Shown here piece by piece: positions 6,286 to 60,856 of a stretch of DNA of 64,000 nucleotides. This stretch comes from Candidatus Chloroploca asiatica (lineage in GTDB: Bacteria; Chloroflexota; Chloroflexia; Chloroflexales; Chloroflexaceae), in the NCBI RefSeq assembly GCF_002532075.1, contig NZ_LYXE01000031.1, positions 1 to 64,000 on the forward strand, given 5' to 3'. The translations under genes and the position numbers were made by a program. The number at the start of each line of letters is the position of its first letter. Within the stretch, counting starts at the first letter, position 1. The notes beneath the pieces were generated by a model. That model saw nothing but the letters and a program-made list of their open reading frames with translations, was not told where the DNA came from and did not search any database.

Positions 6286-6828
6286 ATGACCGTTCGTTTG
6301 CGCGAGAAGTATCAGCAAGAGGTTGTCCCCGCGCTGATGCAAGAATTTAAGTTTACGTCAGTGATGCAGGCACCCCGGCTCACCAAGATTGTGATCAATA
6401 TTGGTGTCGGTGAGGCGGTGCAAAATTCTAAGGCGCTTGATGCCGCCGTGAATGATCTGACGATCATTACCGCTCAGAAACCCGTGATTACCCGGGCGCG
6501 TAAGTCCGTTGCTTCGTTTAAGCTCCGTGAAGGAATGCCCATTGGGGTGATGGTGACGATTCGCGGGAATCGGATGTATGACTTCTATGATCGTTTGGTT
6601 AATCTGGCCCTGCCCCGCATTCGTGATTTTCGTGGGGTGAGCCGCCGTTCCTTTGATGGCCGTGGTAACTATAGCCTCGGCCTCCGTGAGCAAATCGTGT
6701 TCCCTGATATCGACTACGATAAGATTGATAAGCTCCGTGGCATGGAGGTAGTCATTGTGACGACTGCCCCTGATGATGCTCAGGCCTATGCCTTGCTCAA
6801 GCGCCTCGGAATGCCATTTCGTGATTAG
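6286..6828 (+). CDS. rplE: 50S ribosomal protein L5
   Basis: Read from the ATG at 6286, the 180-residue protein begins [18 protein letters not shown] and includes the signature [20 protein letters not shown] and the closing [13 protein letters not shown]5 binds 5S rRNA and forms a bridge to S13. The longer frame from 6259 would add nine unconserved residues. GGAG at 6274-6277 is nearby. Confidence 0.97.
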
Positions 6829-6879
6829 TCTGGACCAGGAGCAAAGGCTTACCAGTCCAACGGTTTAGGAGGAAATACC

Positions 6880-7065
6880 TTGGCGAAGACGTCCTGGATC
6901 GTTCGTTCAGAACGCCCACAAAAATACAAGGTGCGTGAGTATAACCGCTGTAAGGTATGTGGTCGCTCGCGCGGCTATATGCGTAAGTTCGGCATGTGTC
7001 GCATCTGCTTCCGTGAACATGCGCTCAAGGGCATGATTCCGGGTGTGGTCAAGTCGAGCTGGTAA
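6880..7065 (+). CDS. rpsZ: 30S ribosomal protein S14, zinc-binding type Z
   Basis: The 61-residue protein starts at TTG (6880) with AGGAGG at 6867-6872. It has the short type-Z length, and CKVC near residue 24 and CRIC near residue 40 form the zinc ribbon. The rest ([29 protein letters not shown]) is standard S14. S14 sits in the head of the small subunit next to S3 and S10. The spc location between rplE and rpsH is normal. Confidence 0.97.
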
Positions 7066-7088
7066 TAGCATCTGTGAGGAGGCTCGCT

Positions 7089-7487
7089 GTGAGCGTGAAC
7101 GATCCCATTGGTGATATGCTGACTCGTATCCGTAATGCCTGTATGGCCCGCAAGACGGTCGTTGATGTTCCGGCATCAAAGATGAAAATTGCGATTGCGG
7201 ATATTCTTAAGCATGAGGGTTTTATCAAAGATTACACCGTGATCGAGGGGACTCCGTATCATACGATCTCGATTACGCTGAAGTATATGCCGGATCGGCG
7301 CCCGGCTATTACTGGCCTGCGCCGGGTGAGTAAGCCGGGTTTGCGGATCTATACCGGTCGTGATGAAATTCCGCGTGTCCGCGGTGGCCTGGGTCTCAGT
7401 ATTCTCTCGACACCCAAGGGGGTGCTCGCTGGTCACGACGCCTGGCGCGAGCGCGTGGGCGGTGAGGTGCTCTGCTATATCTGGTAG
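7089..7487 (+). CDS. rpsH: 30S ribosomal protein S8
   Basis: With the GTG at 7089 the protein begins [20 protein letters not shown], the normal S8 start. GAGGAGG at 7077-7083 is spaced correctly for it and makes the GTG at 7074 unlikely. The product has about 132 residues and ends GGEVLCYIW as expected (S8 usually ends in a WxYIW-like motif). S8 is a primary binder of the 16S central domain and the repressor of the spc operon in E. coli. Confidence 0.95.
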
Positions 7488-7506
7488 AGCCTACAGGGAG
7501 GCTACA

Positions 7507-8070
7507 ATGTCGCGAATTGGAAAAAAACCAGTCACCCTCCCCAAGGGTGTAGACGTGCAGATTGCTGAGGGGAATTTGGTGACGGTGAAGGGTTCGAAAG
7601 GAACCCTCACCCAGCAATTGCATCCCGATATGATTATTGTGCAGGAAAATGGTGAGTTGACAGTGCAACGGCCCTCTGATACTAAGTTGCACAAGTCGCT
7701 CCACGGTTTGACGCGTACGCTGATCGCGAATATGGTGGTCGGTGTAACTGATGGCTGGCAGCGTGCTCTCGAGATTAATGGCGTTGGCTATCGGGCGGTG
7801 CTCGAGGGCCAGACGCTGGTGCTCAGCCTGGGCTTTTCACACCAGGTGCGCCGTGAGCCGCCACCAAATGTGCAGTATATCGTTGGTGAGCGTAAGAGCG
7901 CGAATGAGCCGCTCGGGTTGATCGTCCGAGGAATCGATAAGCAGGTTGTTGGGGAAGAGGCGTCCCGTATTCGAGCGCTCCGTCCACCTGAACCCTATAA
8001 GGGTAAGGGTGTGAAGTATGCCGAAGAGAAGGTGCGTCGTAAGGCTGGTAAGGCTGGTAAAGCACGGTAG
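7507..8070 (+). CDS. rplF: 50S ribosomal protein L6
   Basis: The real start is the ATG at 7507 (MSRIGKKPVTLPKGVDVQI), preceded by GGGAGG at 7496-7501. The 187-residue protein ends with the L6 signature PEPYKGKGVKYAEEKVRRK followed by a basic tail. L6 lies near the factor-binding site of the large subunit. The long frame that starts at 7360 is antiphase to rpsH for its first third and is discarded. Confidence 0.97.
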   Translation: MSRIGKKPVTLPKGVDVQIAEGNLVTVKGSKGTLTQQLHPDMIIVQENGELTVQRPSDTKLHKSLHGLTRTLIANMVVGVTDGWQRALEINGVGYRAVLEGQTLVLSLGFSHQVRREPPPNVQYIVGERKSANEPLGLIVRGIDKQVVGEEASRIRALRPPEPYKGKGVKYAEEKVRRKAGKAGKAR

Positions 8071-58226: not shown

Positions 58227-58556
58227 TTAGGCCACCGAGCGTGCCGGAGTTGGCTCTTCTGAAGGTGGACTACAGACGGCGCAGACTCGGAAGGGTATGC
58301 CTGTCCCAGTTACCGTGCGAATATGCTCACGGCTGCCGCAATAGCGGCATACCGAGAGATTCTCGATATCCTCGGCACGCCAAAGTTGAGGGGCCATGGT
58401 TATCTCCATTGGCTCCTCAATCGAGAGCATGCCAACCTTGACACACACGGCAGCAGGGAAGATATCGGCAACACGGGCGAAGATCTTATGTGGATGCGAG
58501 TAGACCTCATCACCAATGAGGATCCCTGTCATCCGGGGATGTGACCGAATTTTCAT
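58227..58556 (-). CDS. Zinc-ribbon protein of unknown function
   Basis: The 109-residue product has an N-terminal beta-rich half (MTGILIGDEVYSHPHKIFAR) and a C-terminal zinc ribbon with CRYC and CAVC about 20 residues apart. No similarity is recognised. It begins in ATGA overlap with the gene upstream, so the two are translated together. A shorter start at the internal Met9 is possible. Confidence 0.75.
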   Translation of the reverse strand: MKIRSHPRMTGILIGDEVYSHPHKIFARVADIFPAAVCVKVGMLSIEEPMEITMAPQLWRAEDIENLSVCRYCGSREHIRTVTGTGIPFRVCAVCSPPSEEPTPARSVA

Positions 58557-58795
58557 AACTCGTCAAGCCGGGCGACAAGCCGTTGGAGATCAGTGTCGTC
58601 CAGCGCGAAACCTGGAGAGTCAGCGAACATCAGATCATCAAGGATTGTACGAAACAGAGGCAGATCATGTTCGTCAACCGTCAAGGCACCTTGTTCAAGC
58701 GCGTAAAAGCGATCAACGGCCCAATTGGCCAGTTGCTCAGCACTGATACGATGCGCAAGGCGCGCCTGAAGTTGAGTACGTATGTCACGACGCAT
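58553..58795 (-). CDS. Small helical protein of unknown function
   Basis: From ATG 58795 the product has 80 residues, mostly helical and acidic at its end (LANWAVDRFYALEQGALTVD, RTILDDLMFADSPGFALDDT). The frame can be extended to 58873, but those residues lie over the terminator hairpin. A TATGAT -10-like hexamer preceded by TGC (58800-58807, - strand) lies so close that the mRNA would start at or near the ATG. Family not recognised. Confidence 0.7.
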   Translation of the reverse strand: MRRDIRTQLQARLAHRISAEQLANWAVDRFYALEQGALTVDEHDLPLFRTILDDLMFADSPGFALDDTDLQRLVARLDEL

Positions 58796-58842
58796 TAGTA
58801 TCATAGCATAAGATTCTTGTTTTTGCATTCCCCGAAAAACTT

Positions 58843-58885
58843 TTTTGTTCCGTTTTGGCAGCGAAGCCGCCAAAACGGAACAAAA
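58843..58885 (-). terminator. Intrinsic terminator of the pyrH-Cas4-like run
   Basis: The arms 58843-58859 and 58869-58885 are perfectly complementary over 17 bases with a nine-base loop. On the - strand it is followed by AAGTTTTTC, a short uridine run. It ends transcription coming from the Cas4-like genes. Confidence 0.8.
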
Positions 58886-58915: not shown

Positions 58916-59434
58916 CTAGGCAAGGGCATCCTCACACAACTCACGAAACCCACAGCCCGCACACCGTCGAGCTTCGTCGTGGCTCCGCCCAACCTCGGCT
59001 TGATCGAGCAGATCGCGCATCACGGCAAGCGTGGCAAGCAGTTCGTCGCGCACTGCCGGCGTATACGCAAGGCGAAAGGTCGTTTGTGCATAACGGAGCA
59101 GACCATAGGGTGGGGCCTGTCCGGTGGTGGCTTCCACGAGCAGACAATAGGCGGCCAGTTGCATTAGATCAGAGTCATAGGGTGTGCTGGCCTGGCGACC
59201 TGGTTTGACCTCAACCGGAATCGTATATCCACCTCGTTCAAGCAGGTAATCGGGCTTGCCCGTCAGCCCATATGCTGCTGCAAAGAGGGGGCGTTGCAGG
59301 CGACGGCCTTCGCCGACATCATCGGCCACCACCCGACCCCAGGGTAACCCAGTACGCCGACGCAGGAGCACAGCGCTTGCCAGGACGAGCAAGGCCAACC
59401 CGATCAAACCAGCAGCGAGGGTCTCTATTGCCAC
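58916..59434 (-). CDS. Cas4-like nuclease, catalytic half with membrane anchor
   Basis: Starting at the GTG at 59434 the product has 172 residues. A membrane helix (about 4-24, LAAGLIGLALLVLASAVLL) is followed by a PD-(D/E)xK domain: Asp62 (GKPDYLLE), Glu75 and Lys77 (IPVEVKPGR), and Gln92-x3-Tyr96. A cysteine set at Cys158, Cys161, Cys167 (CAGCGFRELC) matches three of the four iron-sulfur ligands of Cas4. The fourth cysteine is missing here but occurs in the upstream gene, which it overlaps by 10 bases. No cas genes or CRISPR array are near. Confidence 0.85.
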   Translation of the reverse strand: MAIETLAAGLIGLALLVLASAVLLRRRTGLPWGRVVADDVGEGRRLQRPLFAAAYGLTGKPDYLLERGGYTIPVEVKPGRQASTPYDSDLMQLAAYCLLVEATTGQAPPYGLLRYAQTTFRLAYTPAVRDELLATLAVMRDLLDQAEVGRSHDEARRCAGCGFRELCEDALA

Positions 59435-59652
59435 GCTACCACCAGCAGCAGCACTCCGCCGATCAGCAGAGCAACACCAAGCCACCATGCGCCCTGACTG
59501 AGGGCGACCGCCCGTCCGTGGCGAGCGTGGCGCACCATACCGGCGGCCCGGCGCTCGTGCCCAGCAGGTTCCTGACCGGCGACCCGTCGGAGCCACCAGG
59601 CACGAGCGCAAAAGACAAACTCACCTACTTCACTCGCACGAATAACCGACAT
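59425..59652 (-). CDS. Cas4-like nuclease, N-terminal half with membrane anchor
   Basis: The 75-residue product reads RASEVGEFVFCARAWWLRRV, like the N-terminal end of Cas4 with its single first cysteine (Cys15). GMVRHARHG (His42) follows, which resembles motif I (G-x3-H), then a membrane helix at about 55-74 (WWLGVALLIGGVLLLVVAW). It ends with a stop just inside the next gene. Together the two halves carry all ligands and catalytic residues of a Cas4/RecB-type nuclease. It starts 19 bases after the rseP stop, so it is in the envelope operon. Confidence 0.82.
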   Translation of the reverse strand: MSVIRASEVGEFVFCARAWWLRRVAGQEPAGHERRAAGMVRHARHGRAVALSQGAWWLGVALLIGGVLLLVVAWQ

Positions 59653-59671: not shown

Positions 59672-60856
59672 CTACGAACCACCGAGGATCGGATTGCCTC
59701 GGATCGCATTCATAACATCATTGACCGTAATCAACAACATCAGGCCCATCAGCGCGACAAACCCAATTGCATGGACAAGGGCTTCCTTTTCGGGGGGGAC
59801 TTTCTTGCCACCACGGAGCAACTCGATCACCGAGAAGACAATATGGCTGCCGTCGAGCGCGGGGATGGGCAACAGATTGAGCAAGAAGAGATTCAGGCTC
59901 AACACGGCGGTCAGATTCCAGAACGCAATGAAGCCACCGGGTTGCTGGATCACCTCACCCGTCGCACGTGCAATGCCAACCGGTCCAATTGGTTCACCAT
60001 CGGGTGATGGTGTTGACGAGATAATGCCAAAGATTGCGCCAGGCAAGCCTGCCAGGGCATTAAGCATCCGTCCGAGCAAATCGAGGCTATGGGTCACCCC
60101 CGTCCAGGCTGCCTGGATGGGGCCTGCCTCAACCATCTCGATATCCTGCCCATAACTAAAACCAAAGCCCGACTCAATCTGGGCCCCACTCGGTGATGTC
60201 CAGGGGCCAGGGGTAACGATCAGCGTCACCTCGCGGTCATCACGGAGGACGACGGCCTCGACCGACTGGCCGAGATTATTGCGTCCGACGTCACCGATGA
60301 CCGTCGCGTCGATGGCTGGGCGACCATCGAGGCTTACCAGTTCATCACCGGCCTGAAACCCAGCGACGGCTGCGGGGGTAGCATCAAAGACCTCACCAAT
60401 CAACTGGCGCCCGGTAGGGGTTGGTACCCCCATAAAGAAAAAGAGCACCGCAAAGATGAGCATAGCCAGCAGAAGATTCATCAACGGGCCAGCGACCATC
60501 ACCGCGATTTTGCGCAGTGGTGGTGCAGCCGCAAGGGTGCCTGACCCACCACTATAGATATTATCTTCGGCGCCTTCGTGGCCAGCAAAGCGCACAAAGC
60601 CACCAATAGGCAGCCAGTTCAGCGTATACTTCACGCCATTGCGTTCAAAGAGCACCATAGCCCTGGGGGGGAAGCCGACGCCAAATTCTTCGACTTTAAT
60701 GCCCATCCAGATAGCCGTCAGAAAATGACCAAGCTCGTGGACAACCACCAGCAAACCAAGCATCAGCAAAAAAGCAACAATCGCCACAATCGGATTGCTG
60801 CTTGCTTGCTCGACTGCCTGTTGAAGCGGGGCTGCCGCCGCAGTAAGTAACTCCAT
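59672..60856 (-). CDS. rseP: Site-2 membrane metalloprotease RseP
   Basis: The 394-residue M50 protease has the zinc motif HELGH (VVHELGHFLTAIW), the PDZ domain in the middle (GFQAGDELVSLDGRPAID), and the C-terminal NLLPIPALDG site with the third ligand. It cleaves membrane-anchored regulators such as anti-sigma factors. It follows cdsA by 80 bases and has its own promoter. No dxr lies between cdsA and rseP, although the two often flank it. Confidence 0.95.
   Translation of the reverse strand: MELLTAAAAPLQQAVEQASSNPIVAIVAFLLMLGLLVVVHELGHFLTAIWMGIKVEEFGVGFPPRAMVLFERNGVKYTLNWLPIGGFVRFAGHEGAEDNIYSGGSGTLAAAPPLRKIAVMVAGPLMNLLLAMLIFAVLFFFMGVPTPTGRQLIGEVFDATPAAVAGFQAGDELVSLDGRPAIDATVIGDVGRNNLGQSVEAVVLRDDREVTLIVTPGPWTSPSGAQIESGFGFSYGQDIEMVEAGPIQAAWTGVTHSLDLLGRMLNALAGLPGAIFGIISSTPSPDGEPIGPVGIARATGEVIQQPGGFIAFWNLTAVLSLNLFLLNLLPIPALDGSHIVFSVIELLRGGKKVPPEKEALVHAIGFVALMGLMLLITVNDVMNAIRGNPILGGS

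Follow-up and report, generated by a model that had tools for sequence, protein, structure and literature searches.

Two overlapping genes match complementary parts of a Cas4 profile

The window analyzed here is a 64,000-nucleotide stretch of the Candidatus Chloroploca asiatica genome (contig NZ_LYXE01000031.1). On its reverse strand, downstream of a gene for an RseP-like M50 protease, lie two short open reading frames, which we call A and B (Table 1). A preliminary description, made from the sequence alone, had proposed that they are a Cas4-like nuclease split into two genes with a 10-base overlap, and both the reading frames and the complementary Cas4 profile positions that they match agree with that proposal. 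As first described, the 75 residues of A hold Cys15 and a G-x3-H motif ahead of a hydrophobic helix, while B has its own helix followed by the D/E-x-K core, Q-x3-Y, and C-x2-C-x5-C.

Table 1. Features of the A/B locus, with positions in the window
Feature	Position	Strand	Remarks
Subunit A, 75 aa	59425..59652	-	ORF; N-terminal half of Cas4-like nuclease plus C-terminal membrane helix
Cys15 codon of A	59608..59610	-	Predicted [4Fe-4S] ligand 1
G38-x3-H42 of A	59527..59541	-	RecB/Cas4 motif I
Hydrophobic helix of A, about residues 56-74	59431..59487	-	Predicted from hydropathy
A/B overlap	59425..59434		10 bases
Subunit B, 172 aa	58916..59434	-	GTG start; catalytic and Fe-S region preceded by an N-terminal membrane helix
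Hydrophobic helix of B, about residues 5-24	59363..59422	-	Predicted from hydropathy
Asp62 of B	59249..59251	-	Motif II; kept in 125/129
E75-x-K77 of B	59204..59212	-	Motif III; kept in 125/129 and 126/129
Q92-x3-Y96 of B	59147..59161	-	Kept in 128/129 and 121/129
C158-x2-C161-x5-C167 of B	58934..58963	-	Predicted [4Fe-4S] ligands 2-4
RseP-like M50 protease	59672..60856	-	Upstream neighbor; Peptidase_M50, 171.8 bits; recurs in Chloroflexales loci

The two proteins differ in how readily they are recognized. B passes the cut-off of the Pfam Cas_Cas4 model (PF01930; 38.7 bits against 22.7) and, narrowly, that of TIGR00372 cas4 (66.0 bits against 65), where it covers profile positions 64 to 179. 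A matches TIGR00372 weakly (15.1 bits), yet aligns to profile positions 2 to 45. Profile-profile comparison with ordinary Cas4 proteins gives a probability of 99.5% for B and, with those of the same phylum, 7.6% for A. Because its similarity by itself is weak, the case for A is built from complementarity, conservation, co-occurrence, and co-folding. The same evidence bears on whether A is instead a separate small membrane protein, such as a regulator or anchor, whose cysteine and G-x3-H are merely Cas4-like. The very weak resemblance of A to Cas4 would suit that reading, but B is without the N-terminal cysteine and motif I that Cas4 requires, A supplies both at the right profile positions, and the near-absolute co-occurrence and confident co-fold described below make it quite unlikely.

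The motifs are nearly invariant among 122 A and 129 B sequences collected from the phylum. Of the 122 A sequences, 120 retain Cys15, and the two exceptions are one cut at a contig end and one broken second copy; the glycine and His42 of motif I are kept in 121 and 120. In B, the three cysteines are retained almost throughout (C158 and C161 in 128/129, C167 in 127/129), as are the catalytic residues (Table 1). Most departures come from copies that are truncated, broken, or highly diverged, and a few Ktedonobacteria-like copies (L187, L198, and L199) are missing a single motif residue. The predicted ligand set of four cysteines is thus divided, one in A and three in B, as the preliminary description had it, and the PD-(D/E)XK motifs, including the motif I histidine and Q-x3-Y, are likewise complete only across both chains. 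Within Candidatus Chloroploca, omega is 0.13 to 0.23 for A and 0.06 to 0.10 for B.

Some loci carry variant forms. At L185-L187 and L195-L198 (family f30 and G233, mostly large genomes), A takes a long form of roughly 130 to 160 residues, in which an additional acidic stretch separates the cysteine motif from the G-x3-H and membrane helix; some of these copies are without one motif residue. At L193 (G166:C61), a B-like protein with no A nearby has kept the C-terminal cysteines without D, E-x-K, or Q-x3-Y, and is possibly an inactive derivative.

A and B co-occur across Chloroflexota but need not be linked

B-like sequences (E <= 0.001) were found in 58 of the 61 nearest relatives, mostly as strong matches, with A just upstream in most. 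In a class-level sample of 158 genomes, 76 hold a strong B, and 75 of these also hold an A homologue; in the sole genome that does not, B is cut off at a contig end. In a phylum-level sample of 400 genomes, B reaches E < 1e-40 in 86, every one of which also has A, and five of the six further genomes with A hold a diverged B. Evolutionary distances of A and B correlate with r = 0.87 over 109 loci, a value that includes their shared ancestry.

A scan of a genome collection returned 354 relatives of B. The best 80 of these are Chloroflexota by title, save for two metagenome-assembled genomes (MAGs) and one entry labeled Gracilibacteria, and include Chloroploca, Chloroflexus, Oscillochloris, Roseiflexus, Herpetosiphon, Anaerolineae, Caldilineae, and Thermoflexia. 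The split pair is common to most Chloroflexales and to many other Chloroflexota sampled. The MAG labeled Candidatus Gracilibacteria (L224, JAAUTF010000194.1) gives the same match as G018, a genome of the window's own family, f1, and its label is probably wrong.

The preliminary description had asked whether both genes recur with the same overlap. Both do recur, and the overlap is identical in two other Chloroploca genomes; elsewhere it varies. Among the 74 linked loci of the genome-collection scan, A and B are spaced by anything between -19 and +850 bases, and each of the three frame relations is represented (45, 15, and 14 loci). A and B abut or overlap in most Chloroflexales, and in Roseiflexus they share one frame with one stop between them.

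In several families the halves are not linked at all. In family f5, a single contig of G085 carries them at a distance of about 890 kb, and in G082, G083, G084, and G086 they are on different contigs; in family f35, they are unlinked in seven genomes; and in family f77, they sit at 0.24 and 3.05 Mb of one 3.3-Mb contig in G341 and are also unlinked in G400. The halves are likewise separated in five more genomes (G089, G018, G243, G506, and G507), either by a long distance within a contig or by lying on different contigs. Nearly all of these unlinked copies retain the four cysteines, G-x3-H, D, E-x-K, and Q-x3-Y.

These arrangements decide whether the pair is one ancestral gene that was frameshifted or misread, or that still yields one chain in the cell through a programmed frameshift or stop read-through. 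The abutting or overlapping genes of most Chloroflexales and the single in-frame stop of Roseiflexus are what such an origin would look like. Set against it are the three frame relations, the gaps of up to 850 bases, the low omega of both genes, and the halves that have kept their motifs on different contigs or hundreds of kilobases apart. Moreover, no fused A+B chain was found among any of the loci examined, including the relatives checked for the single uninterrupted gene that would have pointed to an error. The variable frames and the unlinked copies rule out a frameshift, read-through, or sequencing error; as a general explanation the one-chain reading is refuted by the unlinked copies, and it retains next to no probability. 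A and B are two separate genes under purifying selection that obligately co-occur and are separable in the genome.

The two chains are predicted to meet at a membrane hairpin

The hydrophobic helix follows motif I in A and precedes motif II in B. In A, the maximum 19-residue hydropathy has a median of 2.61 and a minimum of 2.11 over 73 homologues; in B, the median is 2.68, with values above 1.6 in 90% of 80 homologues. Lysines and arginines average 3.1 before the A helix and 0.34 after it, and 0.04 in the N-terminal tail of B and 3.6 on the domain side of its helix. Because the positive charges fall on the domain side of both helices, the positive-inside rule predicts that both domains are cytoplasmic. 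The soluble parts of A and B should thus face the cytoplasm, in line with the hairpin first suggested for this locus.

For structure prediction, we used homologues from Roseiflexus and from one Anaerolineae genome in which the genes are in frame, with the stop read as glycine to give a continuous A+B chain. This read-through chain is a folding device that tethers the halves at the tip of the hairpin and carries no biological claim. The models from the two classes reached pLDDT values of 92.9 and 94.2 and pTM values of 0.88 and 0.89, with the A half covered by 11 rows in each folding alignment. In both models, two long helices (in the first, H37-81 from A and H84-111 from B) stand where the membrane hairpin is expected. 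Foldseek matched both models best to type I-C and type I-G Cas4, with Cas4 at an E value of about 1e-6, and also to ACE1 and AdnA, and the first model to Dna2 as well; the Cas4 matches span most of the chain. The co-folds support a predicted meeting of the four cysteines of A and B, the outcome that the preliminary description had proposed to look for by folding the pair together.

The pair differs from known Cas4-family nucleases

Cas4-family nucleases are usually single soluble chains, although this is not strictly defining. The pair departs from that pattern, with two genes, a hydrophobic helix in each product, and loss of linkage in several families; it belongs with Cas4 by the curated profile cut-offs that B exceeds and by the Cas4-like fold of the A+B homologue models. 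CRISPR-associated Cas4 (TIGR00372; type I-C, 8d3l; type I-G Cas4/1, 7mi4; Pcal_0546, 4r5q) has the same fold as that predicted for the pair, the same motif set (G-x3-H, D, E-x-K, and Q-x3-Y), and the same 1+3 cysteines, whereas the pair consists of two chains, each with a membrane helix, and no cas neighbors were seen. The fold class is also common to the AddB/AdnA/Dna2/RecB-type nucleases (with matches to AdnA-AdnB and, for the first model, Dna2), but those are large helicase-nuclease chains, while the pair has membrane helices and no helicase domain. ACE1 (9iab, 9iac), an Argonaute-associated protein, is a non-CRISPR member of the Cas4 family with a fold match to the models of the pair; it was solved as single chains of about 266 to 269 residues, unlike the two chains here, and among the neighbors of the pair no gene was recognized as an Argonaute.

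The pair is not tied to CRISPR loci or to a single neighborhood

The absence of CRISPR genes beside the pair was rightly noted in the preliminary description, but solo Cas4 genes outside CRISPR loci, monophyletic in 'many Chloroflexi,' had already been reported in 2017 (Hudaiberdiev et al., PMC5704561). Neither 'split' nor 'transmembrane' occurs in its main text, and the Chloroflexi solo Cas4 described there quite possibly is B itself or overlaps with B. Among the open-access papers searched, none was found to describe a split or membrane Cas4.

No cas genes recur in the neighborhoods of the pair, so it is not characteristically encoded beside cas1/cas2. Four near-complete genomes (G022, G043, G056, and G058) contain the pair, and a search for Cas1 in them found none. 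The window's own genome has a separate, ordinary single-chain Cas4 (G000:C169:7653-8174) beside Cas1 (6668-7540), and a tree of the common region of 41 split-type B proteins and 20 ordinary Cas4 proteins tentatively parts the two into groups along a branch with support 83. The pair could still be imagined as a membrane-bound Cas4 for CRISPR adaptation that trims prespacers where phage DNA enters, given its Cas4-family fold and the presence of Cas1 in most pair-bearing genomes (and in 51 of the 61 relatives). With cas genes not recurring nearby, the pair kept in genomes in which Cas1 was not found, and a dedicated Cas4 in the window's genome, we regard this as very unlikely.

The position of the pair after rseP, as first described, is correct for this locus, with its RseP-like M50 gene upstream, but this neighborhood is a Chloroflexales feature rather than a general one; there, cdsA, uppS, frr, pyrH, or tsf also lie nearby in many loci. 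In Anaerolineae, NAD kinase, a B-box/membrane protein, and recN often come after the pair. In other classes, a TRAX/translin-family gene often precedes it, in some cases accompanied by ssb and DUF3467. These neighborhoods, which differ between lineages, point loosely to DNA metabolism and do not fix a single pathway.

In about 20 loci of these other classes, the TRAX/translin-family gene (matching AfTrax, 3zc1, E = 1e-18) is close to A or immediately upstream of it; among them are L146, L155, L159, L162, L201, L264, L269, L281, and L283. A specific link was rejected, because TRAX is widespread in the phylum and is found even where the pair is missing. The idea that the pair and AddAB complement each other in their distribution was likewise discarded, as AddA-like genes are present both in genomes that have the pair and in genomes that lack it. 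Two small conserved neighbor genes with no Pfam match lie in the window at 58227-58556(-) and 58553-58873(-); they encode a CxxC-containing, zinc-ribbon-like protein of 109 aa, found in 24 loci, and a 106-aa protein, found in 9.

No relatives were found in the viral contigs and phages searched, and the listed plasmid matches are weak and mostly annotated as ordinary Cas4; a mobile-element origin was rejected. The absence from these phages and viral contigs also weighs against a role outside repair, in which the pair would be an anti-phage or DNA-uptake nuclease that breaks down DNA arriving at the membrane. Its membrane location and the likeness of B to the PADLOC Cas4 and DruK models are compatible with such a role, but the pair is near-universal in Chloroflexales and keeps company with housekeeping neighbors (rseP, NAD kinase, recN, and TRAX-like genes). 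We consider this role possible but unlikely.

A proposed two-chain membrane nuclease

Taken together, these observations lead us to propose, with a probability of roughly 0.8, that A and B form an obligate two-chain, membrane-tethered Cas4/RecB-type PD-(D/E)XK [4Fe-4S] nuclease (exonuclease). The enzyme would be a Cas4/RecB-type nuclease split at a membrane hairpin between motifs I and II, with each chain contributing one transmembrane helix and both soluble parts joined on the cytoplasmic face. The active site would be completed jointly by the histidine of A and the D, E-x-K, and Q-x3-Y of B, and the [4Fe-4S] cluster would be held by one cysteine from A and three from B. So assembled, the chains would bind the cluster and cleave DNA on the cytoplasmic side of the membrane; by likeness to Cas4, Dna2, and AddB, the substrate is most likely single-stranded DNA (ssDNA) or DNA ends. 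The enzyme would act in repair or in the handling of incoming DNA, with CRISPR adaptation not involved.

The architecture is well supported, and processing of DNA ends or ssDNA at the inner membrane face is the role that we infer. We lean toward the broader view that this may be an ancient Chloroflexota-wide two-subunit membrane nuclease, sharing its cluster and active site between the subunits, that serves non-CRISPR DNA-end processing at the inner membrane face.

If correct, the pair would be a natural split enzyme in which the ligands of one iron-sulfur cluster are divided between two membrane proteins across a whole lineage, and its assembly, cluster insertion, and membrane location would be directly testable. 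The B protein, where annotated alone as Cas4, would be only part of an enzyme. Solo Cas4, a group without a known role, would thereby gain a concrete system in the culturable Chloroflexus, Roseiflexus, and Herpetosiphon.
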